The notes below the pieces were generated by a model. It saw only the letters and a list, made by a program, of their open reading frames with translations. It was not told where the DNA came from and ran no database searches. Both the position numbers and the translations under genes were made by a program. Below are positions 44,693 through 63,026 of a stretch of 64,000 nucleotides of DNA, piece after piece. The stretch is taken from NCBI RefSeq assembly GCF_040218225.1, contig NZ_JAVJQO010000008.1:558001-622000 (forward strand). The letters are read 5' to 3'. Origin of the DNA: Gracilimonas sp. Its GTDB lineage: Bacteria > Bacteroidota > Rhodothermia > Balneolales > Balneolaceae. The stretch's first letter is position 1; each line of letters starts with the position of its first letter.

Positions 44693-45703
44693 TTATGAAA
44701 CTGAATTTACCGTCTTAATAATACGGCCTGCTACTTTATAAGGATCTGCATTGGAAGCTGGTCGGCGATCTTCAAGGCGGCCTACCCATCCGTCTTCAAC
44801 GGTTGTTACCGGAATACGAATGGAAGCACCGCGATCAGAAACACCATAACTAAATTTATCTATGGATTGTGTTTCGTGCTTACCGGTTAGTCGCTGATCG
44901 TTGTCAGCGCCATATACATCAATGTGCTCCTTAATGTAATTTCCAAAAGCATCACAAACTTGCTTCATATACTTCTCACCGCCTTCATCTCTCATTTTAC
45001 CATTTGAGAAGTTGGCATGCATTCCAGAACCATTCCAGTCGGTATCGCCCAGTGGTTTTGGATGCCAGTCGATAGCCAAACCATATTTCTCAGCTGTTCT
45101 TTCAATCAGGTAGCGGGCCACCCAGATTTGATCTCCGGCACTGTGTGCACCTTTAGCAAAAATCTGGAACTCCCACTGACCAGCTGCAACCTCAGCGTTA
45201 ATCCCTTCAACATTAAGACCTGCTTCAAGGCAAAGATCTAAGTGCTCGTCAATAATGTCGCGCCCAAAAGCTCTGGTACCGCCTACTCCACAATAATAGG
45301 GTCCCTGAGGTGCCGGGTATCCACCAACTGGAAATCCAAGTGGCAATCCGGTTTCAGGATCATGTAAAAAATACTCTTGTTCAAAACCGAACCAAAAATC
45401 GTCACTATCGTCATCAATTGCAGCACGTCCATTGGTTTCATGAGGTGTACCGTCAGCATTCAGTACCTCTGTCATTACCAGGAATCCGTTTTCACGGTCA
45501 GGATCAGGGAAAATAGCTACAGGTTTAAGCAAGCAATCGGAAGAATCGCCGGTAGCCTGATTGGTTGAACTACCATCAAAGTTCCATATCGGGCAGTCTT
45601 CCAGCTTTCCACTGAAATCGTGCACCACTTTGGTTTTACTTCTCAATAGCTGGGTTGGTTTGAAACCATCAAGCCATATATACTCAAGTTTGGAATACGC
45701 CAT
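44693..45703 (-). CDS. glnII: Glutamine synthetase type II (beta-Grasp, eukaryote-like)
   Basis: A 336-residue glutamine synthetase of type II, which is shorter than type I (about 470) and resembles the eukaryotic and rhizobial enzyme. Diagnostic segments are the start KLEYIWLDGFKP, WNFDGSSTNQA, the ligand-rich FGFEQEYFL near residue 109, QGPYYCGVGG near residue 135, NAEVAAGQWEFQI near 169 and DWNGSGMHANFS near 226. It makes glutamine from glutamate, ammonia and ATP. The adenylylation site of type I enzymes is absent. The 280-base region before it is AT-rich and has no clear boxes. Confidence 0.95.
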   Translation of the reverse strand: MAYSKLEYIWLDGFKPTQLLRSKTKVVHDFSGKLEDCPIWNFDGSSTNQATGDSSDCLLKPVAIFPDPDRENGFLVMTEVLNADGTPHETNGRAAIDDDSDDFWFGFEQEYFLHDPETGLPLGFPVGGYPAPQGPYYCGVGGTRAFGRDIIDEHLDLCLEAGLNVEGINAEVAAGQWEFQIFAKGAHSAGDQIWVARYLIERTAEKYGLAIDWHPKPLGDTDWNGSGMHANFSNGKMRDEGGEKYMKQVCDAFGNYIKEHIDVYGADNDQRLTGKHETQSIDKFSYGVSDRGASIRIPVTTVEDGWVGRLEDRRPASNADPYKVAGRIIKTVNSVS

Positions 45704-45983
45704 ATGAATAAAAAGTTATTTTGGTGTTTCGAAATTAAACAGTGAGAATATAAAGCACTTTTAAGAAAAAGCTCAAATTATTTAATCAAAATTTTATTAA
45801 CTATTAAATAATATAGCTTTTATAAATTCACACCTTAATTATTTTACCTGCAACCGCTTCCACCGAGCTGCTTACTTAATTTATTTTTTCTGTGAATTGA
45901 AATGACTTCACTTTTTAAGCCCTTTCCAAAAGTTGTATCTTCGCTCACAAAGTTATCCACAACCATTCACCAAAAATTTCACG

Positions 45984-46871
45984 TTGAAAGAATCAAAATT
46001 TGCACTTTGGGTTGAAGCTGCCCGTCCCAAAACCCTTGCCGCTGCGCTTGTTCCCGTATTGGTGGGAGCCTCTCTTGCATGGCAGGCAGAATCGCTAAAC
46101 TGGATCAATTCTTTGGTAGCACTGGTCTGTGCATTCCTGATTCAAATAGGTACGAATTTCGCCAATGACTACTTTGACTTTGTGAAAGGTTCAGACACTG
46201 ATGAGCGCATAGGATTTCGCCGGGCAACCGCTGCCGGACTCATCTCAGCCGGTGCCATGAAAAAAGCGACTATCCTGACCATGGGACTTGCCTTCTTTTT
46301 AGGACTTTACTTGGTATGGGCCGCAGGTTGGGTAGTTTTGGCAATTGGAGTTTTGTCCCTGATTTTTGGCGTGCTCTATACCGGCGGACCTTTTCCCCTG
46401 GGTTACAATGGACTGGGTGATATTTTTGTGTTCATCTTCTTCGGGATTGTAGCCGTCATGACCACTTATTACGTAAATACCCTTGAATGGTCGGAAGCTT
46501 CCTTCTGGGCCTCTCTGGCCGTAGGCGGATTATGTGTGAATATTCTGGTGGTTAACAACCTGAGGGATGTGGAGCAGGACAAAAAATCAGGCAAACGAAC
46601 CATTGGCGTACTTTTTGGAGAAACCACACTGAAGCTCGAATATCTGTTGATGGTAGCTCTGGCTTTTGCCATCCCTCCCCATTTCTATGTACAGCTTGGA
46701 TATAATATCTGGATTATGCTTCCTTACATCAGTCTGCCCCTGGCTGGATTCTACACGTACAGAATCTGGACGGAAAAGGATAAATCACAATTAAACCCGA
46801 TGCTTGAACGAACCGCTCAGTACATGGTAGTGTTTGGTATTCTCTTCTCCATTGGAATTCTGATGAACTAA
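45984..46871 (+). CDS. menA: 1,4-dihydroxy-2-naphthoate polyprenyltransferase MenA
   Basis: A UbiA-family membrane enzyme of about 295 residues with eight to nine helices that attaches the isoprenoid tail. It starts KFALWVEAARPKTLAAALVP and has the aspartate-rich prenyl-diphosphate motif NDYFDFVKGSDTDERIG near residue 70 and DVEQDKKSGKRTIGVLFGE near residue 197. The frame is open to TTG 45933; TTG 45984 is preferred because homologues start here. It ends one base into menC. With menC and menE it makes the second menaquinone block. Confidence 0.92.
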   Translation: MKESKFALWVEAARPKTLAAALVPVLVGASLAWQAESLNWINSLVALVCAFLIQIGTNFANDYFDFVKGSDTDERIGFRRATAAGLISAGAMKKATILTMGLAFFLGLYLVWAAGWVVLAIGVLSLIFGVLYTGGPFPLGYNGLGDIFVFIFFGIVAVMTTYYVNTLEWSEASFWASLAVGGLCVNILVVNNLRDVEQDKKSGKRTIGVLFGETTLKLEYLLMVALAFAIPPHFYVQLGYNIWIMLPYISLPLAGFYTYRIWTEKDKSQLNPMLERTAQYMVVFGILFSIGILMN

Positions 46872-47941
46872 TGCTGGACTATTACACATATCGCCTTCCC
46901 TTCAAGCAGCCCTTTCGCAGTGCTGTGAATACATTCTCACACCGTGAAGGCATTATCCTGGTTTACACGGAAGGTGACATCGAAGCTTATGGAGAGATCG
47001 CCCCGCTTCCCGGATTCTCTGATGAAAGTCTGACGCAGATTAAGGAAGTCCTGAAGGTAAATCACGCACACCTTCAGCAGGCCCTTCAATCCGTTGACGG
47101 GAAGCAAATGCTTCATGTCCTGGAACAAATTCATCAGTTCCCTTCCCTCAGCTTTGGTCTGGATACTTTAGTGCATGACCTGGAAGCTAAAAAGGCCGGT
47201 AAATCTCTGGGGGATTTTCTGTTCCCTGACTTCCCGGATTCTGTAATTGCCAATGGTACTTTATCTCTACAGGAACCAGCCACCGTTATAACCAAGGCAA
47301 AAGCATTGGTTCAGCAGGGTTTTAAAACCTTAAAAGTAAAAGTTGGGGAGAACTTTAATTCTGAACTGAAGCTGTTGCAGGATCTTCGAAACCAGTTTCC
47401 GAACATTACTATACGTATAGACGCCAATCAAAGCTGGGCAAAAAGTGAAGCCATACAGAATCTAAAGGCTTTGGATTCGTTGGAAATAGAGTATTGCGAA
47501 CAACCGGTTCCCAAAGAAAAAATTACTGATTTAGCTGCCGTCAAAGAAGCGGTTAACATTCCCATAGCCGCCGATGAATCTTTGCGGAACAAACAGGATG
47601 CAACTGAACTATCAGAACTGGAAGCGACCAACCTATTTATTATAAAGCCTATGCTTTTGGGTACATTTGATAATATTTTCGTAACAAAAAGCACGGCTGA
47701 TACTCATAATATAGAAGTGGTGGTTACCACTGTGTTGGAATCAGCGATTGGAAGAGCAATGACATCCATTCTTGCAGCGGGTTTGGGAAATCAAAAACGG
47801 GCACATGGTTTGGCTACCGGAAGCTTGTTACAAAATGACACCAGTACGGATGAATGGCTGAACCAGCCGGTGATCACATTTCCCGAAAAAGCAGGCTTGG
47901 GAATTACAGTGGATAAGGAAGGATTAAAAAAGTTATTTTAA
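46871..47941 (+). CDS. menC: o-succinylbenzoate synthase MenC
   Basis: A 356-residue enolase-superfamily dehydratase. The first acid-base Lys is in FKTLKVKVG (near residue 157), the metal ligands are in IRIDANQSW, EYCEQPV and IAADESLR, and the second Lys is in LFIIKPMLLG (near 259). An N-terminal capping domain fills residues 1-105. It dehydrates SHCHC to o-succinylbenzoate. It overlaps menA by one base and lies five bases before menE, so one transcript is likely. Confidence 0.93.
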   Translation: MLDYYTYRLPFKQPFRSAVNTFSHREGIILVYTEGDIEAYGEIAPLPGFSDESLTQIKEVLKVNHAHLQQALQSVDGKQMLHVLEQIHQFPSLSFGLDTLVHDLEAKKAGKSLGDFLFPDFPDSVIANGTLSLQEPATVITKAKALVQQGFKTLKVKVGENFNSELKLLQDLRNQFPNITIRIDANQSWAKSEAIQNLKALDSLEIEYCEQPVPKEKITDLAAVKEAVNIPIAADESLRNKQDATELSELEATNLFIIKPMLLGTFDNIFVTKSTADTHNIEVVVTTVLESAIGRAMTSILAAGLGNQKRAHGLATGSLLQNDTSTDEWLNQPVITFPEKAGLGITVDKEGLKKLF

Positions 47942-47945
47942 GTAT

Positions 47946-49430
47946 ATGTTCAAATCACGGCTACATATGTTTGAGTTTAAGAAAAAGGAAACACCTCATG
48001 TGTTTCTGTCTTCTCAGCACGGTATGTACACGTATAGTGATTTAGAACGCTTCACTGCTTTTTTTAAGGATCTGGTTGAAGAAAAAGCAGACTCGCTCAA
48101 ATGGCCGGTAGCTTTTCTTTCCGAATCGAGCGATATGCTGATTTTTGGCATTGCCGCCTGCTGGAAATTGGGTATCCCCTTCGTTCCCATCAATCCAAAG
48201 GTGAAAAATGAAGAACTCAAAGAATATATTGACGCGCTAAAGCCTGTTCTCATTTTTTCAGACACCAAAAACCGAAGCCGGCTTGGTGATGAAAACGTCA
48301 TCAAGATGGACGAGAATTTTTTCCTTAATTCTTTTACTCATGATGTCCGGAATGTTGAACTTCCCGATCCGGATTCGATTAAAGATTCCCAGATCTTTGG
48401 ATATTTCTTTACTTCAGGTACCACCAGCAAACCCAAGATTGTTCCTCTAAAACGGCGTCAGATTTTAAGTGCTGCCGAAGCTTCTGCTCAAAACTTCAAA
48501 CCCGATCCCAACCATTTCTGGCTGCTCTGTCTCCCGCTGAATCACATTGGAGGCATTTCCATTATTCTCCGCTCGGTTATTTATGATACGGCTATTTACC
48601 GCCTGGGAGAATTCCACGAAGAAATGGTGAAAGAGTTTTTGGGTGAAAACAAACGCTTCCAGGCCGCATCCCTCGTTCCAACCATGCTGAAGCGCTTGCT
48701 GGATGATCCGCTTTTCAAAACACACCGTGAGTTTAAATCTATTTTACTGGGCGGCGGACCTATTTCTGAAACACTGCTGAAAAAATCGGCTGAGCGCGGC
48801 ATTCCCATCGTGTCCAGTTATGGCATGACGGAAACCTGTGCCCAAATTATTGCCAATCCTCTGCTCGCTCCTTCAGGTATGTATACCCCACTGAAAAGTG
48901 TAGGCAAACCTTTTCCTCCAAATGAAATGCAGATCCGTGATGATAACGGAAAGGTGCTGGGTAAAAACCAGTCAGGTGCGCTGTGGCTGAAAGGTCCACA
49001 GGTGTTTGATGGTTATTATGACAGCGAAGAAAATGAAAACCGGTTCGACAAAGACGGCTGGTTTAACACCGGCGATTACGGTCACATGAATGGTTTCGGG
49101 CATTTGTTTATTGAATCCCGCCGAAGTGATCTCATTATTACCGGTGGCGAGAACGTGAATCCCACCGAAGTAGAAGAAGCCATGCGCAAGCTCGCCACTA
49201 TTGAAGAGGCCGTGGTAATTGGCCTGCCTGATGAAGAATGGGGGCAAAAAGTAACCGCCGTAGTAACGCTTAAAAATGGTAAAACACCCGGGCTTGAAGA
49301 AATACGGGAAGAATTAAAATCTCATCTTACTGACTTCAAGATTCCTAAAGAGCTTAAGATTGTTAAAGACTTCCCTAAAACCAGCACCGGCAAGGTAAAG
49401 CGCTGGGAGCTGGTGAAGCAGTTTAAGTGA
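47946..49430 (+). CDS. menE: o-succinylbenzoate-CoA ligase MenE
   Basis: A 494-residue acyl-CoA synthetase of the ANL superfamily. The ATP-binding loop FFTSGTTSKPKIVPLKRR is near residue 156, the YGMTETCAQI segment near 295, the WFNTGDYGHM region near 360 and the C-terminal lysine motif in TGKVKRWELV near residue 482. It activates o-succinylbenzoate for MenB. The menC-menE order supports MenE over a general acyl-CoA ligase. It is the last gene before the accessory region. Confidence 0.92.
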   Translation: MFKSRLHMFEFKKKETPHVFLSSQHGMYTYSDLERFTAFFKDLVEEKADSLKWPVAFLSESSDMLIFGIAACWKLGIPFVPINPKVKNEELKEYIDALKPVLIFSDTKNRSRLGDENVIKMDENFFLNSFTHDVRNVELPDPDSIKDSQIFGYFFTSGTTSKPKIVPLKRRQILSAAEASAQNFKPDPNHFWLLCLPLNHIGGISIILRSVIYDTAIYRLGEFHEEMVKEFLGENKRFQAASLVPTMLKRLLDDPLFKTHREFKSILLGGGPISETLLKKSAERGIPIVSSYGMTETCAQIIANPLLAPSGMYTPLKSVGKPFPPNEMQIRDDNGKVLGKNQSGALWLKGPQVFDGYYDSEENENRFDKDGWFNTGDYGHMNGFGHLFIESRRSDLIITGGENVNPTEVEEAMRKLATIEEAVVIGLPDEEWGQKVTAVVTLKNGKTPGLEEIREELKSHLTDFKIPKELKIVKDFPKTSTGKVKRWELVKQFK

Positions 49431-50473: not shown

Positions 50474-51436
50474 TTACAACGCATCCACGGGGCTTTTGAT
50501 GTAGTTGCCGCCTTTGTTAATCACGTGTGTGTAAATCATAGTTGTCTTCAGGTTTTTATGGCCGAGGAGCTCCTGTACGGTGCGGATGTCGTAGCCATTT
50601 TGGAGCAGATGCGTGGCAAAAGAGTGCCGGAAGGTATGACAGGTTACTTTTTTCCGTATACCTGTTTTTGTTACTGCTTTCTTTAGTTTTCGCTGGACCT
50701 GACGGCTTGAAATATGATAGCGGTGTTCTGCCCCAGTTCGTGGATCTTTTGAAATTCTTGAAGCCGGAAACAGGTATTGCCACCCCAATCTCGATTGCTC
50801 ATCAGGATATTTGCGAGCGAGTGCTTTTGGCAGAAGAGCTTTTCCAAATCCATCTACCAGGTCTTTTTTGTGGATCACCTCCACTTTTTGTATTTGCCAC
50901 CGAAGCTTGGGAATACTTTTCTGGGGCAATAAGCTCACCCGGTCTTTGTCTCCTTTTCCTGAACGAACCCACAATTGTTCATTTTCAAAGTCAACATCCT
51001 GCACTCGCAGCCGAAGGCATTCTGAAATTCTTATCCCGCTGCCATAAAGCAACTCACAGATCATCAGGGTTCGCCCGCGTAGTTGTTCCAGAATCATCAT
51101 CGCTTCTTTGTGAGACAGAACCACCGGCAGTTTACGGGGTTTCTTTGCTCTTTTTAAATTATCGAGCTTTAGGCTTTCTCTTCCCAGAACATGCTTATAG
51201 AGAAACAGCAAGGCAGAGAGCGCCTGATTTTGGGTGCCAGCAGCCACATTTTGTTCATTAGCCAGATCATTGAGAAATTGTTCAATTTGCCTGTCCCCTA
51301 ACTTTTTGGGGTGAACCGTTCCATGAAACCGTATATACCTTATAATCCAGTTGGTATAAGCCTGCTCGGTCCGGTAGCTATAATTCCTTCTTCGTATTTC
51401 TTCTCTAACACTTTGTAATAACTTCGATTTGCCCAT
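50474..51436 (-). CDS. intI: Integron integrase IntI
   Basis: A 320-residue tyrosine recombinase with the integron-specific features. The core is complete: Arg136 (GIRISECLRL), His267 and Arg270 (CHTFRHSFATH), His293 (LLGHKN) and nucleophile Tyr302 (TMIYTHV). Between the first Arg and the HxxR box it has the extra integron-only region (ALLPKALARKYPDEQSRLGW and onward), and it ends GGNYIKSPVDAL, the pattern that closes IntI proteins (the KVGGAGVRSPLDAL type). It inserts and excises cassettes at attI and attC. It reads away from the cassette array, the classic arrangement, and nothing suggests it is inactive. Confidence 0.96.
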   Translation of the reverse strand: MGKSKLLQSVREEIRRRNYSYRTEQAYTNWIIRYIRFHGTVHPKKLGDRQIEQFLNDLANEQNVAAGTQNQALSALLFLYKHVLGRESLKLDNLKRAKKPRKLPVVLSHKEAMMILEQLRGRTLMICELLYGSGIRISECLRLRVQDVDFENEQLWVRSGKGDKDRVSLLPQKSIPKLRWQIQKVEVIHKKDLVDGFGKALLPKALARKYPDEQSRLGWQYLFPASRISKDPRTGAEHRYHISSRQVQRKLKKAVTKTGIRKKVTCHTFRHSFATHLLQNGYDIRTVQELLGHKNLKTTMIYTHVINKGGNYIKSPVDAL

Positions 51437-51663: not shown

Positions 51664-52173
51664 ATGCGATTTCCTACTTCATTTATACTTCTTTTTATTA
51701 TTCTGCTTTTGCCAGTGTATTCAATGGCACAAATACGTCCAAATTACGAGTCGGTAGTTAAGGAAGTATTGAAATTGAGTGCAGCAGAAAAAGTTGTTAC
51801 AGATTCTTTGCTAATTACGTCCTACCCTAAAACAGCCGATGAGCACAAATTGCTTCATCAGATAGTTGAAAATGACTCAACTTCGGAAAAAATTTATTTA
51901 CAAGGATTTCGAAACCGAGATCTACTAGTTGAGAAAAGTGTAAGAAATGGAAACTTGGAATTACTAAAAGCCCATCTAATTTTATCCATATTTATTGAAG
52001 GAGATGAAGCAATGTGGTTTGTTGAAAATCTCGACCCAATGTTAAGTGGTCCAGAAATCAGCAAAATCTGTTCGACAACTAAAGAAGTTGTTGAAGAAGT
52101 AGGTAAATCAGAATTACACTTAATCTCAGACTTGATCCAAAATTGTGAATCAGGTGCTTGGAGCAAGTACTAA
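51664..52173 (+). CDS. Cassette 1: exported protein of unknown function
   Basis: A 169-residue protein with a signal peptide ending at SMAQ (about residue 23) and a mature helical, acidic domain (for example EKVVTDSLLITSYPKTADEH). No family is recognised. It is the first cassette: the cassette runs from T51643 to G52296, so the gene starts 21 bases inside it and stops three bases before the attC. Being next to attI it is the most recently gained or most strongly expressed cassette, if the usual integron rule holds. Base composition is lower in G+C than the surrounding genes. Confidence 0.75.
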   Translation: MRFPTSFILLFIILLLPVYSMAQIRPNYESVVKEVLKLSAAEKVVTDSLLITSYPKTADEHKLLHQIVENDSTSEKIYLQGFRNRDLLVEKSVRNGNLELLKAHLILSIFIEGDEAMWFVENLDPMLSGPEISKICSTTKEVVEEVGKSELHLISDLIQNCESGAWSKY

Positions 52174-52175
52174 TC

Positions 52176-52302
52176 GCGCTATAACAAGGCGTTTTAAATC
52201 GGACGCGGACAGGGTGCGATGGAAACTTGATTGCCAGGAATTAATTTTGCTACTTCAACTAAATTATAATCCCCGCGCCGTTTAAACGCTGGGTCGTTAT
52301 AC
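52176..52302 (+). other. attC1, integron recombination site (family A)
   Basis: A 127-base imperfect inverted repeat. The left box GCGCTATAAC (52176-52185) is the exact complement of GTTATAGCGC at the start of cassette 1 (51642), and the right box is GTTATAC at 52296. The arms AAGGCGTTTTAAAT and CGTTTAAACGCTG pair imperfectly, with a central region not shared with family B. Confidence 0.93.
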
Positions 52303-52314
52303 CGCTTAATCCAT

Positions 52315-52860
52315 ATGGTAAAATCTTTTATACCAATTATAGTTTTGATTTTCATTTGGGCAAATTCTGCACTTGCTCAAAATGCAGAAGAAATTCAATC
52401 GCAACAGAAGGAAGTGATTCTACATTTTTATCAACTTCTTTTGCAAGAAACACCAGTAACTGTAAGTCAGGCTCATGAAATATTTAATCCTGAGCAGATG
52501 TGGAATATTGAATACTACGATGAAAGTCTTTCCGCAGAACAAAAATCTGCATTTTACGATGGTGATCCTGATACTTTGATTAGCCGAACATTTAAAAAGA
52601 TTGATAATTATAAGTCAGACCTAATTCCGAATTATTCCAGTGAAACTTCCTTTTCCGAATTAATTGAAAGCTTTACCATAGAATTAATTAATTCAAGGGG
52701 TGATGAACAGATTAGAGTCAATCAGTATCAGGTAATTTCATCAATAGATGAGAATTGGAAAGTCATATTTGATTTCTATGGCCATCCCTTTCAACAAATT
52801 TCAAAAATTATAATTGGAGAAAGAAAAGATATCTTAAAAGAAATTGGATTATCCGATTAA
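52315..52860 (+). CDS. Cassette 2: exported protein of unknown function
   Basis: A 181-residue protein with a signal peptide ending at ALAQ (about residue 22). The mature chain has a helix-rich first half with QQKEVILHFYQLLLQETPVT and then strands, ending DFYGHPFQQISKIIIGERKD. No family is recognised; the fold resembles small SnoaL/NTF2-like or lipocalin-like domains, but I would not assign one. It fills the cassette from T52297 to G52987. A low-G+C gene, unlike the neighbouring chromosomal genes. Confidence 0.72.
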   Translation: MVKSFIPIIVLIFIWANSALAQNAEEIQSQQKEVILHFYQLLLQETPVTVSQAHEIFNPEQMWNIEYYDESLSAEQKSAFYDGDPDTLISRTFKKIDNYKSDLIPNYSSETSFSELIESFTIELINSRGDEQIRVNQYQVISSIDENWKVIFDFYGHPFQQISKIIIGERKDILKEIGLSD

Positions 52861-52867
52861 ACAAAGC

Positions 52868-52993
52868 GCGGTATAACAAGGCGTTTTAAATCGGACGCGG
52901 ACGGGGTGCGATGGAACTTGACTGCCAGGAATTAATTTCGCTACTTCAACTAAATTATAATCCCCGCGCCGTTTAAACGCTGGGTCGTTAGTT
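52868..52993 (+). other. attC2, integron recombination site (family A)
   Basis: A 126-base site. The left box GCGGTATAAC (52868) is the exact complement of GTTATACCGC at the start of cassette 2 (52296). The right box GTTAGTT is at 52987. Nearly identical to attC1 in its arms and centre. Confidence 0.93.
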
Positions 52994-53008
52994 GGCCTAA
53001 ACCAATCT

Positions 53009-53725
53009 ATGAGTAAAGCATTTTTAAAAATCTTTCTTGGGTTACTTTTAAGCTCTTTTTTGACTTCCTGTGCCATTCACCAGCCGATGAGTGAAATGGT
53101 TATGTTTCAACAGAAGAAAGCTCTCTCCGACTCAACTTTTTTTTCCAAATACAGTCATAGTATCGGCAGCTTCAGTTCTGACCATTTTTTGGAATCTGCG
53201 GTGTTAGATTATATCGGCTATAATTCTCAAAGTGAAAGGAAAAAACAGTATGGCAATCCCTTTGCTTTAACTACCAATTTAATCTTCTTAAATGAAAACC
53301 ATCAAAACTTAGGTTTTTCTATTGCACTGGCTCCCCTAATTGCAGGAACAGGTGTTGATCTTACATATAATGTTTTTGGAAAATATTACCTGACAGCTGC
53401 CGGTGGGATGGGACGAGACTTTAGGGATTTTCAACACCAGTTTATCTTTCAGCGAAGATTAATGGACGGAAACCCCTTTGGACTTTCCCTTGGAGCTGTT
53501 TGGAGGAAAAATTATAGATATGTAAGTATCACTACAGAATCTGTATTTGGAAGTTCTCAAGATTTTTATTCTCAGTCGTTCGGAATACGTTCGGTATTTA
53601 CTTTATCGCCAATTTCTGAATATGGGTCATCAAAATTATTTTTGCACGGAACTGGATCTTTCAATTATGACATTACTATGGAGGCTTTTTACCCTAAAAT
53701 TGGAATATCCGTTGGCATATATTAA
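53009..53725 (+). CDS. Cassette 3: lipoprotein, possible outer-membrane barrel
   Basis: A 238-residue protein with a lipoprotein signal ending in the lipobox LTSC near residue 21. The mature chain has many alternating strands (NLGFSIALAPLIAGTGVDLT, KYYLTAAGGMGRDF, NPFGLSLGAVWRKNYRY), suggesting a small outer-membrane beta-barrel with an extra lipid anchor. No family is recognised. The cassette runs from T52988 to G53850. Its attC belongs to a different family from that of the two cassettes before it. Confidence 0.72.
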   Translation: MSKAFLKIFLGLLLSSFLTSCAIHQPMSEMVMFQQKKALSDSTFFSKYSHSIGSFSSDHFLESAVLDYIGYNSQSERKKQYGNPFALTTNLIFLNENHQNLGFSIALAPLIAGTGVDLTYNVFGKYYLTAAGGMGRDFRDFQHQFIFQRRLMDGNPFGLSLGAVWRKNYRYVSITTESVFGSSQDFYSQSFGIRSVFTLSPISEYGSSKLFLHGTGSFNYDITMEAFYPKIGISVGIY

Positions 53726-53730
53726 ACCTC

Positions 53731-53856
53731 GGCCAACTAACAAGCGCATTAACTGGGACGCGGACGTAGCTTTGGTTTCTAGAGTTGCTTGTTTAAAATT
53801 ATTAGCCGTTTATTAACTCATAATCTCCGCGCCCGTTATGCGCTGGGTCGTTAGGT
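53731..53856 (+). other. attC3, integron recombination site (family B)
   Basis: A 126-base site. The left box GGCCAACTAAC (53731) is the exact complement of GTTAGTTGGCC at the start of cassette 3 (52987). The right box GTTAGGT is at 53850. The left arm reads AAGCGCATTAACTGG, unlike family A. Confidence 0.93.
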
Positions 53857-53886
53857 GTACCTCTCTCTCTATTAAATTATAGTTGA

Positions 53887-54456
53887 ATGTATTTTAAAAG
53901 TATTTTTGTGCTTATAGGTGTTTTAATAATCTCCTCCACTTGCTACTCCCAAAGCGATGTTAGTGTTGATAGCACTTCCTATAATAGTATAATTGGTATG
54001 GAGCGAAGTGAAGCGTATAAAAAACTTGGAGTAAGTTACTCAGGTGGTACGATTATCGGTTGGGTAGAACCTTCACCAAGACCAATCATGACACATTCTT
54101 TCGCCCATGCAACCTTTGACAGTAAAAATATCTTTATGCTCATGAGGGTAGATGATCGGAGTCACGAGAAAATGGATAGCCCCTCTTTTGTCCTCGATCA
54201 AATGATAATCAGTGCAGATAATCCTGATTACCTCATTTCATATATGGGTTGTACACTAAATGGTCAAAGTTATTATCCAGACGGGGCAATTATTGCAGTA
54301 TATAAAGATAATGGGCAGAAGGTTGTAACAGATATTGAGAAGGCATGGAAGGCTAGTTTTAGGGAGAATAAATTCATTGAAATATCGCCTAAAAATATAC
54401 AATGTAAGTTAACATCTGGGAGTTACATTTTGCTTGATAGTACAGAACTTAAATAA
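53887..54456 (+). CDS. Cassette 4: exported protein of unknown function
   Basis: A 189-residue protein with a signal peptide ending at CYSQ (about residue 22). The mature chain starts SDVSVDSTSYNSIIGMERSE and has the short patterns GGTIIGWVEPSPRPIMTHS and FDSKNIFMLMRVDDRS. No family is recognised. The cassette runs from T53851 to G54578. The stop codon is two bases before the attC left box. Confidence 0.72.
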   Translation: MYFKSIFVLIGVLIISSTCYSQSDVSVDSTSYNSIIGMERSEAYKKLGVSYSGGTIIGWVEPSPRPIMTHSFAHATFDSKNIFMLMRVDDRSHEKMDSPSFVLDQMIISADNPDYLISYMGCTLNGQSYYPDGAIIAVYKDNGQKVVTDIEKAWKASFRENKFIEISPKNIQCKLTSGSYILLDSTELK

Positions 54457-54457
54457 A

Positions 54458-54584
54458 GTACACCTAACAAGCGCATTAACTGGGGACGCGGACATAGCTT
54501 CGGATTCCGGAGTTGCTTGTTTTAACTTTTTAGCCGTTAATTAACTCATAATCTCCGCGCCCGTTATGCGCTGGGTCGTTATAG
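54458..54584 (+). other. attC4, integron recombination site (family B)
   Basis: A 127-base site. The left box GTACACCTAAC (54458) is the exact complement of GTTAGGTGTAC at the start of cassette 4 (53850). The right box GTTATAG is at 54578. It is nearly identical to attC3 except in the boxes. Confidence 0.93.
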
Positions 54585-54612
54585 GGCTTTTTCAAATTCC
54601 ATTCTACTTGAT

Positions 54613-55650
54613 ATGAATAGAGTAATAAAAAGGCAACACTCTTCAACAATTGAGAACTTCGAAAGAATTTCAGAATATGAGAATGATGTTGACCTAAAAA
54701 GTGAAATTGAGTCTGGTTTAAGTTCAATTTTCCTAATCTCAAATAAGATTCCTCTCAGAGATGTTTACGACTTCTTTTCAGGTGAAAATTTTTCGGTTCT
54801 TGAAAGTTTTGAAGAATTGGAAGCTTCTTATCATTTGGCTAAATATGGTTTTTATAAACAATCTATGGTTAGTCTTAGAATAGCATTAGATATTGGCCTA
54901 TTATCAATATTTTGGTCAATAATCGGAATTGAAAGTAATAGATTTAAAGAATGGTATTCATCAAAATCTGATACGCCAAGAAAAGACAAAAATTTTTGGC
55001 AGACTTTAAACTCAAATGATAGTATTTCAAAATTTAATGAGAAGTTTGATCTAAAAGAAGAAATAGAAAGTTTAGGTGCACTATCAGACTTCGTACACAC
55101 AAAGGGTTTGTGGTATTCAAATTTTTCTGATGTCAAGAGAAAAATAAAAGGTCAAGATGAATTTAAAGATTTTAAAATTTGGTTCGGTAACTTTAAAAAA
55201 GTTATAAGAATACTTGAAATACTACATTTATTAAAATACCCAACCATGTGTCTGGATTATTCAACCGAATTCCTCCTCTCCAAGTTTGGTACGCTTGATA
55301 AGATCCCTCAATTTGGAGGCGGGCTTGGTGATGAAAAAAAGTATGTTTTTTCCTTTCTATCCAAGAAAGAGAAACAATTAATTGAAGAATTGTCTAATGA
55401 AAATGAAGAGGTTCAAAACATAAAAAAATATATTTCTGAATTACCTGATTTGAGTGAAAAAGAAATAAGAACTTTGGTTTTTAAAGAACAAAAGAAAAAC
55501 ATTGGTAACAGCGGGTTTGATAATTGGAGCCAATACTCTCACGTATATGATCACAGAATAGATGATGAAATGAAGAATGATCTCAAAGAATGGGCACAGA
55601 AAAATAATTTAATGTCTATTGATGACATAATTAAAAATCATCAGTCATAA
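54613..55650 (+). CDS. Cassette 5: cytoplasmic protein of unknown function
   Basis: A 345-residue protein, the largest cassette gene and the only one without an export signal. It is rich in Lys, Glu and Phe, and mostly helical with a moderately hydrophobic stretch ALDIGLLSIFWSIIGIE near residues 95-111, which may be a buried helix. The C-terminal third is strongly charged (KNDLKEWAQKNNLMSIDDI). I recognise no family; a defence function is possible in a cassette but not shown. Cassette limits are T54579 to G55780. Very low G+C compared with the genome. Confidence 0.72.
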   Translation: MNRVIKRQHSSTIENFERISEYENDVDLKSEIESGLSSIFLISNKIPLRDVYDFFSGENFSVLESFEELEASYHLAKYGFYKQSMVSLRIALDIGLLSIFWSIIGIESNRFKEWYSSKSDTPRKDKNFWQTLNSNDSISKFNEKFDLKEEIESLGALSDFVHTKGLWYSNFSDVKRKIKGQDEFKDFKIWFGNFKKVIRILEILHLLKYPTMCLDYSTEFLLSKFGTLDKIPQFGGGLGDEKKYVFSFLSKKEKQLIEELSNENEEVQNIKKYISELPDLSEKEIRTLVFKEQKKNIGNSGFDNWSQYSHVYDHRIDDEMKNDLKEWAQKNNLMSIDDIIKNHQS

Positions 55651-55659
55651 ATTCAAAGC

Positions 55660-55786
55660 GCCCTATAACAATGCGTTTTAAATCGGACGCGGACGGGGTT
55701 CTATGGGAACTTGATTGCCAGGAATTAATTCCGCTACTTCAACTAACTCATAATCCCCGCGCCGTTTAAACGCCGGGTCGTTATAC
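55660..55786 (+). other. attC5, integron recombination site (family A)
   Basis: A 127-base site. The left box GCCCTATAAC (55660) is the exact complement of GTTATAGGGC at the start of cassette 5 (54578). The right box GTTATAC is at 55780. Similar to attC1 and attC2. Confidence 0.93.
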
Positions 55787-55806
55787 CAACTAATGAATTT
55801 AACATT

Positions 55807-56328
55807 ATGATTCGCCTTCTTTTTCTCTTTGTTTTCGCTCTTTTTACCTCTCATCTATCCCTCGCTCAGACCGGGCCTAATGTTGAGAAATCAAAGAGTT
55901 TTGAACAGAGTAATGATTCTTCCCAGAATTTTCATCCACAATTACTAGCTATATCAGTAAAAAACTTAGATGCCTCAGTTAAATGGTATGCTGATGTACT
56001 TGGCTTTACCAAGATTGAAAATTATGATTTCCCTGATGATCAAATGCGACTTTCCTTTATGGAGAGAAATGGTTTTGAGCTGGAACTGATCGAAATTGCT
56101 GACACCCCTTCTTTTTCGGCACCAAATCCTGAGAACCCGGCTACCCGGCGCGGGCTTGTTAAGTTTGCCTTCTATAGTGACGTTATAGACTCTTTGTACG
56201 CCTCAGCTGTAAAAGCTGAAGCAAAGGTTCAGTCCTCGATACGTAACAGCAATCGAACGGGCGGGCGCTTTTTTATCTTACTCGACCCAGATGGAAATTG
56301 GGTCCAGGTTTTTGGCCCCGCCGAGTAG
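55807..56328 (+). CDS. Cassette 6: exported VOC/glyoxalase-fold protein
   Basis: A 173-residue protein with a signal peptide (cleavage near SLAQ, residue 21), a linker of about 22 residues rich in Ser and Asn, and one VOC domain: PQLLAISVKNLDASVKWYAD near residue 44, ELELIEIADTPSF, then FFILLDPDGNWVQVFGP at the end. Metal-ligand positions are partly occupied, so activity is uncertain. An exported VOC protein is unusual: most are cytoplasmic. It starts after attC5 at T55781, but no attC of its own follows; the cassette is fused to a broken toxin gene by a deletion. Confidence 0.8.
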   Translation: MIRLLFLFVFALFTSHLSLAQTGPNVEKSKSFEQSNDSSQNFHPQLLAISVKNLDASVKWYADVLGFTKIENYDFPDDQMRLSFMERNGFELELIEIADTPSFSAPNPENPATRRGLVKFAFYSDVIDSLYASAVKAEAKVQSSIRNSNRTGGRFFILLDPDGNWVQVFGPAE

Positions 56329-56400
56329 TCGGATTCTAAGGAGAAGCCTCTCTTCATTCTGCTACTGATGTTTAAAAGAAGCGAGAAAGAGTATTCAAAA

Positions 56401-56539
56401 GTGACTATTAAATTTCATTCAGAAGCCAGAAAAGAATTCTTTGAAAGGAATCATCTACTCTGTGGAAGACGAGCTTATCACAATAACTGCTGTCAAGCAT
56501 ATGAAACGAAAACCGGGTTATTGGGAGTCAAGAAAATAA
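56401..56539 (+). pseudogene. Cassette 7 remnant: broken RelE/ParE-family toxin
   Basis: The start (GTG 56401, TIKFHSEARKEFFE) reads like the N terminus of a RelE/ParE toxin. After about residue 15 the frame must shift by one (near 56447) to continue as IIYSVEDELITITAVKHMKR and KPGYWESRK, the typical toxin C terminus, ending at TAA 56537. The middle of about 50 residues is missing, so this is a deletion-plus-shift pseudogene. A TGA overlapping the GTG at 56401 (GTGA) suggests an antitoxin gene used to end here, but only 11 codons of that frame are left. Confidence 0.75.
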
Positions 56540-56542
56540 CCG

Positions 56543-56571
56543 TTGACATAACAATGCGTTTTAAATCGGAT
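56543..56571 (+). other. Truncated attC, left half only
   Basis: GTTGACATAACAATGCGTTT and the following AAATCGGA match the left box and arm of the family A attC sites. No right arm follows: the sequence turns into unrelated DNA at about 56571. The box, GTTGACATAAC, does not match the start of cassette 6 (GTTATACCAAC), so it belonged to another cassette, the toxin one. It marks the end of the integron. Confidence 0.85.
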
Positions 56572-56671: not shown

Positions 56672-58030
56672 ATGAAAAATACCAGCGAAATCCTTGAATC
56701 TCTGAAAGCTTCCGATATCCAAAAAGTGAAGCTTGCCATTACCGACATTGACGGGATTCTGCGGGGGAAACTAATCTCAAAAGATAAATTCTTTAAAACC
56801 GTTAACGACAAGCTGGGCTTTTGTAACGTAGTGTTTGGCTGGGATGCAAACGATGCCGTTTATGACAACTCGGAAGTCACCGGCTGGCATACCGGCTTCC
56901 CGGATTCTATGGCCAGTATCGACCTTATCACTTTCCGTAAGATTCCCTGGGACAATAATACTCCTTTCTTTCTGGGCGATTTCCACCAGTCGGAGGATAT
57001 AGAAGATGTTTGTCCGAGATCACTGCTTAAAAAAATAGCTGCTCAATCCGGGGAAATGGGTTTTATTCCCAAATTCTCCAATGAGTTTGAATGGTTTAAC
57101 TTCAAGGAAACACCTCAATCCCTGAAGGATAAAGACGGCATCAAACCCACTCCCCTTACTCCGGGTATGTTTGGATATTCAATCCTAAGGTCTTCCCAGA
57201 ACTCTGAATATTTTAATGAGCTTTTTGATTTGCTGACAAAATTCGGCATTCCCATCGAAGGCATTCACACTGAAACCGGAGATGGAGTATACGAAGCCTG
57301 CATAGAATATACCGATGTACTGGAGGCAGCGGACCGTGCGGTGCTCTTTAAAACCGGGGTGAAGGAAATTGCCTATCGCCATGAGATTATTGCCAGCTTT
57401 ATGGCCAAGTGGAATACGAATCTTCCGGGTTGCAGCGGGCATATTCACCAAAGCCTGTGGGATGAGAAAGAAAAGAATAACCTTTTCTTTGATGGCAAGG
57501 ATTCAAACAAAATGAGCGATACGCTGAAGCATTATCTGGCCGGACAACTGCATTGTCTGCCACACATCCTGCCGATGTATGCGCCTACCGTTAACAGCTA
57601 TAAACGCCTGGTGGAAGGTTCCTGGGCAGCCACTTCGGTAAGCTGGGGCATTGAAAACCGGACGACAGCAATGCGTGTAATCAATCATGGCGAAGATTCC
57701 ATGCGGCTGGAAACCCGCGTTCCCGGTGCCGATGCAAATCCGTATCTGTCTATGGCAGCGAGCCTGGCTTCGGGCTTGTATGGCATCAAAAACAAACTGC
57801 CTCTGAACATTGAGCCTACCCAAGGAAATGAATATGACAATGAGGCTACCCTCTCCCTTCCGAAGACACTTACAGAAGCAACGGAACAGATGAAATCTTC
57901 GGATATTGCTACAGAATTGTTTGGAGAGTCATTTGTGAATCACTTTATTAAAACTCGCGAATGGGAATGGCAACAGTTCAACAGCAAAGTGACCGACTGG
58001 GAATTAAAACGCTATTTTGAAATTATTTAA
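56672..58030 (+). CDS. Glutamine-synthetase-family ligase (GlnA/PuuA-like)
   Basis: A 452-residue member of the glutamine synthetase superfamily, type I-like in length. It has the beta-grasp N-terminal domain (to about residue 115), then FSNEFEWFNF near residue 130, HTETGDGVYEACIEY near residue 209, and CSGHIHQSLWDE near 256. Its closing segment is RVPGADANPYLSMAASLASG near 349. The GPG loop of true GS is GDG here, as in divergent members such as PuuA (gamma-glutamylputrescine synthetase). It probably joins glutamate to an amine other than ammonia. The housekeeping GS is GSII at 45 kb. It begins a trio with a kinase and a phosphatase. Confidence 0.88.
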   Translation: MKNTSEILESLKASDIQKVKLAITDIDGILRGKLISKDKFFKTVNDKLGFCNVVFGWDANDAVYDNSEVTGWHTGFPDSMASIDLITFRKIPWDNNTPFFLGDFHQSEDIEDVCPRSLLKKIAAQSGEMGFIPKFSNEFEWFNFKETPQSLKDKDGIKPTPLTPGMFGYSILRSSQNSEYFNELFDLLTKFGIPIEGIHTETGDGVYEACIEYTDVLEAADRAVLFKTGVKEIAYRHEIIASFMAKWNTNLPGCSGHIHQSLWDEKEKNNLFFDGKDSNKMSDTLKHYLAGQLHCLPHILPMYAPTVNSYKRLVEGSWAATSVSWGIENRTTAMRVINHGEDSMRLETRVPGADANPYLSMAASLASGLYGIKNKLPLNIEPTQGNEYDNEATLSLPKTLTEATEQMKSSDIATELFGESFVNHFIKTREWEWQQFNSKVTDWELKRYFEII

Positions 58031-58042
58031 CCTACGTTTTTT

Positions 58043-59086
58043 ATGTCATTTATTGATTTTAATGAGATTGTAAAGGAAGCCTGGCGAGCGTACGATCCAA
58101 CCCGCACTATTATTACCATTACCGATATCAGTGCCAAGGTTTCTACCAATCACGTATACCGGGTTACCTTTAAGGATGGGAATATCATCATTGCCAAGCT
58201 GTCCTATTTCGGGAAGTACGAGCACTTTGTGGAAGATCACTCGATTATCAATTCGCTTTCCAACAACCTGCCCGATCCGTTTGAAAATTTCCTGGCCCGT
58301 TCCCTCATCAAAGAGAATTCTCTGTTTGTACATCGCCATACGGATGATGTAATTGATGCCTGGGTGGTCTTTTACCGGCCGATTAAAATCAAGCGTAAGC
58401 TCCCAAAACGACTGAATGAAGATCAAATCCAAAAGCTGGCGAAGGAGTTTGCCCGTTTTCATAAGGCGTGTCACACCATTCGGAATACCCTGCCTCCCTC
58501 TTCTAAAACACTTAAGGTGGATGTGGAACATTTGCTGGAAATCATGCGAACGGATTCTGGTCAGCACGAATTCAGGATGCATCACGAACAAATTGAAAAG
58601 CACTGCAACCTTTTTCTGGAAAACGTAGATAAGCTGGATGCCAATAACCTGGATACCATCCCTGTTTTCGTGGACTGGAACATTGGCAACTTCTCAGTCA
58701 ACCCGCAATTCAAGCTGTTTTCCCGCTGGGATTATGACTGGTTCCGAATGAGTTCCCGTATGATCGATTTCTACTTTTTTGCCCGGATTTCTTCGGATGT
58801 AGGCGACCGAACCGTATTCAGTTACGATGTAGATCCACTTATGGAAGATCGTTTTATTGTCTTCCTGAAAGCTTATCACAAAGAATATCCGCTTACCGAA
58901 ACTGAAATCCGTTTTCTGAAAGAAGCCTACCGCTTTTTTATTCTGAATTATGTTGTTAAATATGGCAAGTATTTCTTCCACGAGATTTTTGCCACCAAGC
59001 TACAGCAGGAAGCATATGAGCGATATCTTCCCCTGCTCGACAAGAAATTTGATCCCGAACCTCTTCTAAACGCATTGCACTTATAA
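58043..59086 (+). CDS. APH-fold small-molecule kinase (phosphotransferase)
   Basis: A 347-residue protein of the aminoglycoside phosphotransferase/choline kinase fold. The ATP-binding Lys is in IIAKLSYFGKYEHFVED near residue 50; the catalytic loop is VFVDWNIGNFSV near residue 210 (HGDLHxGN-like, with the Asp and Asn kept); and the metal-binding Asp is in RWDYDWFRMSSRMIDFYFFA near residue 230. Such kinases phosphorylate amines, sugars or amino alcohols. It lies 12 bases after the GS-like gene and one base before the phosphatase, so it is in the same operon. Confidence 0.85.
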   Translation: MSFIDFNEIVKEAWRAYDPTRTIITITDISAKVSTNHVYRVTFKDGNIIIAKLSYFGKYEHFVEDHSIINSLSNNLPDPFENFLARSLIKENSLFVHRHTDDVIDAWVVFYRPIKIKRKLPKRLNEDQIQKLAKEFARFHKACHTIRNTLPPSSKTLKVDVEHLLEIMRTDSGQHEFRMHHEQIEKHCNLFLENVDKLDANNLDTIPVFVDWNIGNFSVNPQFKLFSRWDYDWFRMSSRMIDFYFFARISSDVGDRTVFSYDVDPLMEDRFIVFLKAYHKEYPLTETEIRFLKEAYRFFILNYVVKYGKYFFHEIFATKLQQEAYERYLPLLDKKFDPEPLLNALHL

Positions 59087-59087
59087 C

Positions 59088-59942
59088 ATGAACATGAGAA
59101 CCCCCTCCTTTCGCGAGATCGCAAAAAACTTTAAAGTTATATTTCTGGATTCCTATGGCGTGCTTAAGAACCATAAGGGCTTGATTGAAGGCGTGCCTGA
59201 AACCATCGCTTTTTTGCGGGAAGAAGGCATCACCTTTCGGGTGTTAACCAATGATGCCTCCCGAAGTCAACACCAACAGGCGGTAGTATTTGATCAGCTG
59301 GGACTAAAGGATCTTGACGAGGAAGAAATCATCACTTCCGGCATGCTGGCCAAGCAGTTCCTTCAGCATAAAATCAAAGAAGGGAAAATCGCCTACCTGG
59401 GAACAGAGAATTCTGCCGAGTATATTCTACAATCCGGGTTGGAGCACATTGCCGTTCGAAATATCGACCTTAATAACCTGGATGATATTTCCGCTTTTGT
59501 GTTTCTGGATGATGAGGGATTTGACTGGAATACCGATATTGACACCACCGTGAATTTCCTGCGCCGCAAAACCGTGCCCGTAATCGTTGCCAACTCGGAT
59601 AAATACTATCCGGTCTCAAAAAATGACGTTTCTGTAGCCACCGGCGGCATTGCCAAACTGTGCGAGAGTATGCTGAACAAGAAATTTATCCATTTCGGCA
59701 AACCCGATACCCAGATGTTCAACTACGCTTTTGAGCACATCAACCAAAACGGACAAATATTCGACAAAGAAGAAATCCTGATGGTTGGCGATACACTAAG
59801 TACCGACATCTTAGGTGGCAATAAGTTTGGGCTGAAAACCATGCTGGTTCTGTCTGGTAACACCCGCGCTGAAAATGCGGATCTCTGGATCAATTCTTCC
59901 GGCATCATTCCGGATTATATCTGCGATTCTATCCTGGGATAA
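59088..59942 (+). CDS. HAD-superfamily class IIA hydrolase (NagD/CECR5-like)
   Basis: A 284-residue HAD phosphatase of class IIA (NagD-like). Motif I is IFLDSYGVLKNHKG near residue 20 (nucleophile Asp at position 1, Tyr where most HADs have the second Asp), motif II is VLTNDASRSQ near residue 46, and motif IV is MVGDTLSTDILGGN near residue 229. The DxxGV pattern without the second Asp is shared with the TIGR01459/CECR5-like subgroup, so activity may be unusual. It follows the kinase gene by one base; the two could act on the same substrate in opposite or successive steps. Confidence 0.85.
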   Translation: MNMRTPSFREIAKNFKVIFLDSYGVLKNHKGLIEGVPETIAFLREEGITFRVLTNDASRSQHQQAVVFDQLGLKDLDEEEIITSGMLAKQFLQHKIKEGKIAYLGTENSAEYILQSGLEHIAVRNIDLNNLDDISAFVFLDDEGFDWNTDIDTTVNFLRRKTVPVIVANSDKYYPVSKNDVSVATGGIAKLCESMLNKKFIHFGKPDTQMFNYAFEHINQNGQIFDKEEILMVGDTLSTDILGGNKFGLKTMLVLSGNTRAENADLWINSSGIIPDYICDSILG

Positions 59943-61601: not shown

Positions 61602-63026
61602 ATGAAGTTACGATATGGAATAATCTTAACCACACTCATGCTGCTTTTTGCGGATCCCGCTCTGGCAGTTTCGGAAGGTGCAAACGTAGCCAATGATGAA
61701 GTAGAAGTAGCCAATAATGATACTTTTCAGGCTTACGGAAATGAATACTCAACCATCGATGAATTCAAGGCATCAACGGATTACATCAAATTCATTATCG
61801 ATAATCTTTGGATTTTGATTGCAGCATTTATGGTATTGATGATGCACCTGGGTTTTGCTACAGTAGAAAGCGGACTTACTCAGGCCAAGAATGCCGTTAA
61901 TGTAATCTATAAGAATGTGTTCATCCTCACGGTAGGGATCATTCTTTATGCGTTCATTGGATTTCAAATAATGTACCCCGGCGACTTTAATGGTTTCTTC
62001 GGTTTTGGTGGGTTCGGCATTGGGTTTGATCCATCAGATCCTGTTGGTATGCTTACTCCGGCTTATGGACTGGATATGACTATCTGGACGGATTTCATCT
62101 TCCAGGCTATGTTTGCAGCAACTGCAGCTACTATTGTTTCAGGTTGCGTTACCGGCAGGATTAAGCTTCCCTCTTTTATGCTTTTTGGGGTACTGCTGCT
62201 CGCATTCTGCTATCCGGTAACGGGAAGCTGGCACTGGGGTGGCGGCTGGTTGTCCGAACTTGGATTCTATGACTTTGCCGGTTCTACCCTTGTTCATGCC
62301 GTAGGTGGTTTTGCAGGACTCGCTTGTGTACTTCTTTTAGGACCCCGTACAGGTAAATATGAAGGTGGAAAGATTCATGGTATCCCGGCTCACAATATTC
62401 CTTTAGCAACTATTGGTGTATTTCTGCTTTTCCTTGGCTGGTTTGGATTTAATGGTGGTTCTGTACTCAGTGCAGATCCCGAAACTGTTTCCTATGTATT
62501 CGTAACCACTGCTTTGGCAGCCTGTGCCGGTGCATTGGCTTCTATGATCACCACACAAATCACCATGAAGTCGCTGGATGCCCCTATGGCCCTGAATGGT
62601 ATTTTGGCAGGATTGGTGGGAATTACCGCAGGCGCGGATGTTGTCTCGCTTACTGATGCTGTTTTAATCGGTGCCATTGCCGGTGTACTGGTAGTACTCG
62701 CCATCCTGATGTTTGACAAGTTAAGAATTGATGACCCTGTTGGTGCCATCTCCGTACACGGTGTTTGTGGTATTTGGGGAACTCTTGCTGTAGGAATTTT
62801 CTCTGCTGACTACAGCTTTGGAATCCAGTTGCTTGGAACATTATCTATTGCTGCATTTACCTTCATATTTTCTTTGATCGTATTCGGAGCTATAAAAGCT
62901 ACCATTGGTGTCCGGGTTTCTAAAGAAGTTGAATCCGACGGACTCGATATTTCGGAGCATAAAAATCATGCTTATCCAGATTTCTCACCTGTTAAGACTT
63001 CAGAATTGGGAGCTTTTGCCGACTAA
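61602..63026 (+). CDS. amt: Ammonium transporter Amt
   Basis: A 474-residue membrane transporter with a signal peptide and an extra extracytoplasmic stretch of about 30 residues before the first helix, then eleven helices. Family features include GFATVESGLTQAKNAVNVIY near residue 88, DFAGSTLVHAVGGFAGLA near 225 (first pore His), FLGWFGFNGGS near 282, and the second pore His in AISVHGVCGIWG near 387. It brings ammonium into the cell. No glnK/PII gene accompanies it; instead a TorF-like porin gene follows 200 bases downstream. Confidence 0.95.
   Translation: MKLRYGIILTTLMLLFADPALAVSEGANVANDEVEVANNDTFQAYGNEYSTIDEFKASTDYIKFIIDNLWILIAAFMVLMMHLGFATVESGLTQAKNAVNVIYKNVFILTVGIILYAFIGFQIMYPGDFNGFFGFGGFGIGFDPSDPVGMLTPAYGLDMTIWTDFIFQAMFAATAATIVSGCVTGRIKLPSFMLFGVLLLAFCYPVTGSWHWGGGWLSELGFYDFAGSTLVHAVGGFAGLACVLLLGPRTGKYEGGKIHGIPAHNIPLATIGVFLLFLGWFGFNGGSVLSADPETVSYVFVTTALAACAGALASMITTQITMKSLDAPMALNGILAGLVGITAGADVVSLTDAVLIGAIAGVLVVLAILMFDKLRIDDPVGAISVHGVCGIWGTLAVGIFSADYSFGIQLLGTLSIAAFTFIFSLIVFGAIKATIGVRVSKEVESDGLDISEHKNHAYPDFSPVKTSELGAFAD

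Follow-up and report, generated by a model that had tools for sequence, protein, structure and literature searches.

A conserved operon encoding a glutamine-synthetase-family ligase, an APH-fold kinase and a class IIA HAD protein in Bacteroidota and Balneolota

Near the end of the 64,000-nucleotide stretch of DNA analysed here (the window; its genome is designated G000, and other G and L numbers denote the genomes and loci surveyed), three genes follow one another on the + strand. The first (56672-58030) encodes a glutamine-synthetase-family ligase of 452 aa (PF00120, 324 bits), referred to below as the trio ligase. The second (58043-59086) encodes KIN, a 347-aa kinase of an unnamed family recognised by its predicted APH/choline-kinase fold and invariant catalytic residues, and the third (59088-59942) encodes HAD, a 284-aa class IIA HAD protein with the motif I sequence DSYGV that scored over the TIGR01460 cut-off. 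The tight spacing described in the initial annotation, with gaps of 12 bases between ligase and KIN and 1 base between KIN and HAD, agreed with the ORF positions. The ligase had also been described as separate from a GSII at 45 kb, and a distinct GSII (GlnII) gene was found at 44693-45703 on the − strand, with NF041605 as its best match (404.5 bits, below the cut-off of 500). The trio is followed by the gene of an ammonium transporter, Amt (61602-63026, + strand; TIGR00836, 379 bits, over cut-off), and is preceded by that of an integron integrase of the tyrosine recombinase type (50477-51436, − strand; TIGR02249, 446 bits).

A cassette-like array extends after the integrase at about 51664-56570 and carries direct repeats of the ATAACAATGCGTTTTAAATCGGA family in 4 copies. 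It parts the trio from the GSII gene and the men genes of the window (44693-49430). The last shared 23-base repeat, at 56548-56570, lies about 100 bases ahead of the ligase gene; the trio itself was not accepted as an integron cassette, given its conservation among relatives.

In order to assess this conservation, KIN was sought in 394 genomes of the phylum, of which 43 matched (two only weakly), and also in genome contigs, where 311 relatives passed and 80 loci were kept. Both KIN and HAD were present in 106 of 110 loci, on the same strand in all 106 pairs and with a median gap of 6.5 bases, and the trio ligase lay within the same locus in 61 of the 110 (median gap 11 bases). These locus counts are not genome counts, because some genomes enter twice, once per collection (for example L022/L042 and L050/L224). 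The trio arrangement is not due to chance and has been kept across many Bacteroidota and Balneolota; it is known in Balneolaceae, Chitinophagales and Cytophagales. KIN gave no match in plasmids at E 1e-5. Across 54 genomes, HAD orthologues occurred in 34/34 genomes with KIN and in 0/20 without it, and the ligase at an identity of at least 50% in 27/34 and 0/20, respectively. KIN and HAD are thus near-obligate partners. Among 299 genomes of Chitinophagales, the ligase was found in 87, KIN in 39 and both in 29. Co-occurrence in relatives, which the initial annotation had named as the test of the grouping, was therefore strong, also where the genes are unlinked.

The surroundings of the trio were then compared at the 84 KIN loci of at least 12 kb, where GSII was found in 17 and GSIII and Amt in 5 each; which side of the trio they occupy varies by lineage. 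GSII adjoins the trio in many relatives and is about 11 kb distant in the window. At three loci (L138, L139 and L140), menE, menC and menA lie opposite a GSII-ligase-KIN-HAD series. A CarB-like N-terminal half was observed as a separate ORF at L042:6102-7745, L040:5958-7649 and L022:1-1245, with the same end point in all three; L022 and L042 are probably one genome. This ORF lies upstream of KIN, with a gap of about 250 bases in L042, and was taken as unrelated; c56, c85 and other inserted genes were likewise read as unrelated neighbours.

The trio ligase is of the same superfamily as the gamma-glutamylputrescine synthetase PuuA, but its score against the PuuA equivalog (NF045547) was 215.6 bits, far below the 650-bit cut-off. 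It also fell below the cut-offs of three further NCBIfam equivalogs, namely GlnA (228 against a cut-off of 429), type III GS (222 against 470) and PRK09469. Assignment as PuuA, GlnA or type III GS was therefore ruled out by the curated cut-offs. The metal, ATP and glutamate residues E138, E140, E201, E208, H257, R312, R330, R335, E347 and R349 were invariant in 70 trio ligase sequences, while the ammonia-site flap glutamate (E327 of GSI) was replaced by tryptophan (W318) in 70/70 and the D50 position was variable. PauA7 and GlnA4 have likewise lost both acids (PMC6529630). This combination of retained catalytic residues and a missing flap glutamate is that of a GlnA4-like enzyme, GlnA4 of Streptomyces coelicolor being a glutamine-synthetase-family gamma-glutamylethanolamide synthetase without the flap residue (PMC6529630). 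The residue pattern, together with the orthologues in ethanolamine operons described below, supports the earlier suggestion of a ligase making gamma-glutamyl amides, which would be distinct from the ammonia-using glutamine synthetases.

In genomes without KIN, the ligase was mostly encoded in operons of the type Eat-ligase-FeADH-PuuD-ALDH, comprising an ethanolamine permease, an iron alcohol dehydrogenase, a PuuD-like hydrolase and an aldehyde dehydrogenase, with the reservation that not all members are present at every such locus and that some loci are cut by contig ends. The permease scored over the TIGR00908 equivalog cut-off in L127 and L122. The ligases of the ethanolamine operons form one clade (100/94) nested in the radiation of the trio ligases; only three conservative columns differ between the two sets and the active-site columns are alike. 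Because such close orthologues sit in operons with an ethanolamine permease, an alcohol dehydrogenase and an aldehyde dehydrogenase, an amino alcohol is the likely amine of the trio ligase, which is probably a gamma-glutamyl amino-alcohol synthetase, using for example ethanolamine. Ligase and KIN-HAD were at separate sites in G126 and G627, with the ligase in an ethanolamine operon; in G521 and G541 the ligase was also away from KIN, with no ethanolamine operon around it. Since complete ethanolamine operons coexist elsewhere in the genomes G126 and G627, KIN-HAD does not seem to be a simple substitute for the oxidative branch.

A second ligase family, about 35% identical to the trio ligase, was mostly adjoined by genes for an SDR, an ALDH and a GATase, with a permease as well in L122 and L123; the exception is L126, where all four are absent beside the ligase. 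In their make-up (GS, SDR, ALDH and GATase, some with permease), these operons match the glnA4 ethanolamine cluster of Streptomyces (PMC6529630), and such operons were observed at L122:7973-13488, L123, L121, L124 and L125 in Bacteroidota and Balneolota. Among 68 distinct genomes with KIN (both panels), 53 carry the trio ligase and 13 only the second family; G502 has a divergent ligase that directly adjoins KIN, and G199 has neither the trio ligase nor the second family. The second family was present in 13/15 genomes with KIN that lack the trio ligase against 1/27 genomes lacking both KIN and the trio ligase (Fisher p about 5e-8, for comparison genomes not matched for ancestry), which is suggestive of a link between the second family and KIN across genomes.

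KIN itself gave no Pfam match at E 0.001 and no NCBIfam match over cut-off, the PF01636 (APH) profile scoring 12.2 bits against the window protein (E 0.16) where its gathering score is 23.2. A profile search of PDB sequences returned nothing real. The AlphaFold model of KIN (pLDDT 89.9) nevertheless bears out the APH/choline-kinase fold proposed in the initial annotation, with VIA matches at Z 17-20 (maximum 20.2). The near-ties were amicoumacin kinase, YihE, NahK, homoserine kinase, aminopropanol kinase and choline kinases and, because the best matches tie in this way, the fold cannot name the substrate. Residues K52, D65, D211, N216, D230 and D232 were invariant in 122 sequences, and these include the ATP lysine (K52), the catalytic aspartate (D211) and the metal asparagine and aspartate (N216 and D230). 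KIN thus shares the fold and the catalytic Asp/Asn/Asp set of the APH, choline kinase and aminopropanol kinase (6ef6) enzymes, with a sequence likeness that is barely detectable. Based on the model and these residues, KIN is a kinase of the APH/choline-kinase fold from an unnamed family.

HAD was assigned to class IIA with 138.4 bits against TIGR01460 (cut-off 100.15). Its conserved residues include the nucleophile D21, T54 of motif II, K205 of motif III, and D235 and D240 of motif IV. The altered motif I noted at the outset is a family trait, as D-[SA]-[YF]-G-V was found in 115/115 readable sequences; position 23, two residues after the nucleophile, is Tyr or Phe throughout and the usual acid/base Asp is absent. 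Ordinary phosphomonoesterase chemistry is uncertain for HAD because this Asp is gone. HAD also matched PDB 2hx1 over its full length (304.5 bits), a 'predicted sugar phosphatase' whose record assigns it no function and in which motif I likewise departs from DxDGV and reads DAFGV.

Searches for the oxidative ethanolamine route were made in the trio genomes. No FeADH of the ethanolamine pathway was found in 26 trio genomes, apart from a weak match in G545 whose frame is interrupted by a stop, and the window genome gave no match to FeADH at E 1e-40, to SDR at 1e-60 or to the GATase query at 1e-8. Among the genomes tested, the SDR occurred only in three control genomes carrying the second ligase family, as did strong GATase matches, with weak ones in four trio genomes. 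Hydrolases of the generic PF07722 family were present in all 37 genomes, with and without KIN alike. The Balneolota trio genomes, including that of the window, contained only distant APC transporters (26-29% identity in the window genome) and no close match to the ethanolamine permease, while close Eat relatives (41-47%) were found in some Bacteroidota trio genomes (G099, G214, G249, G363 and G371). These permease, FeADH, SDR and GATase searches gave no sign of the oxidative route in the window genome. The trio differs from the glnA4 cluster in having a kinase and a HAD protein, whereas the dehydrogenases, the GATase and (in Balneolota) the permease of that cluster are without a close match in the trio genomes tested.

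Literature searches turned up neither a study of the ligase-KIN-HAD set nor a named pathway that combines the three, in keeping with the initial annotation, which knew of none. The operon, the folds, the intact catalytic sets of the ligase and KIN and the co-distribution of the genes can be read from the sequences and, with these in hand, we tentatively propose a reading whose chances we place somewhat short of even: the trio may form a gamma-glutamylation module that is linked to nitrogen assimilation and takes an ethanolamine-like amino alcohol as its amine. The ligase would join glutamate to the amine at the expense of ATP, and KIN and HAD would work one after the other, on either the amino alcohol or the gamma-glutamyl amide. 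The reactions of these two proteins, and their order, are conjecture, as is the phosphorylation and later release of an intermediate suggested in the initial annotation. KIN might phosphorylate the hydroxyl, after which HAD would strip the phosphate from the product; or HAD might dephosphorylate a compound such as phosphoethanolamine, and the amine so released would be used by the ligase. Counting against such a module are the absence of close FeADH, SDR and GATase matches from the trio genomes tested and of a close permease match from the Balneolota ones, the lack of the motif I Asp in HAD, the presence of KIN in G199 without either ligase, and the occurrence of KIN-HAD alongside complete ethanolamine operons. 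Rather unlikely, in our estimation, is the bolder form of the proposal, namely that Bacteroidota and Balneolota have a so far undescribed pathway for amine nitrogen. In it KIN, as a new APH-fold kinase family, and the Asp-less HAD would process a gamma-glutamyl amino alcohol, phosphorylation chemistry replacing the alcohol and aldehyde dehydrogenases and the gamma-glutamyl hydrolase.

Other explanations were weighed against the gamma-glutamylation module. KIN and HAD could serve the turnover of ethanolamine and phosphoethanolamine, for example from lipids, with the ligases of either family being a separate drain on the same ethanolamine pool. The choline-kinase fold of KIN, its co-occurrence with unlinked ethanolamine operons and the absence of the permease from all 84 KIN loci of at least 12 kb (0/84) are consistent with this; yet a kinase and a phosphatase working on one metabolite would make a futile cycle, and HAD lacks the motif I Asp, so that we consider this explanation unlikely. 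The target could also be protein and not metabolite: KIN and HAD would then form a reversible regulatory pair, phosphate being added to and removed from enzymes of the glutamine synthetase family or a nitrogen regulator. In several lineages the pair does recur beside the trio ligase, GSII, GSIII and Amt, and the fold of KIN is about equally near to YihE and to small-molecule kinases. Nevertheless, one or other ligase is nearly always present in genomes with KIN, which points to amine ligation; most of the APH-fold neighbours act on small molecules, and no regulatory domain was seen. A regulatory pair is accordingly given a slim chance.

The motif I of HAD suggests a further possibility. LHPP, a HAD protein that also lacks this Asp and has Ser in its place, takes phospholysine, phosphohistidine and pyrophosphate as substrates (PMC11277029), and the invariant Tyr/Phe at the same position of the trio HAD could mark a similar P-N, P-O-P or acyl-phosphate hydrolase. 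Together with KIN, it would use ATP to hydrolyse or repair a labile intermediate of the ligases that carries phosphate. LHPP differs in having Ser and not Tyr/Phe at this position, and the trio HAD has a kinase as operon partner; the chance we allow this explanation is slimmer still.

Overall, the trio offers a testable biochemical setting, that of amino-alcohol gamma-glutamylation and nitrogen assimilation, for an unnamed kinase family and for a likewise unassigned HAD family, to which 2hx1 is a relative of solved structure. If KIN and HAD act on the product or the substrate of the ligase, the trio would represent a new way of using or storing amine nitrogen; if they act on proteins instead, they would be a kinase/phosphatase pair linked to glutamine synthetases.
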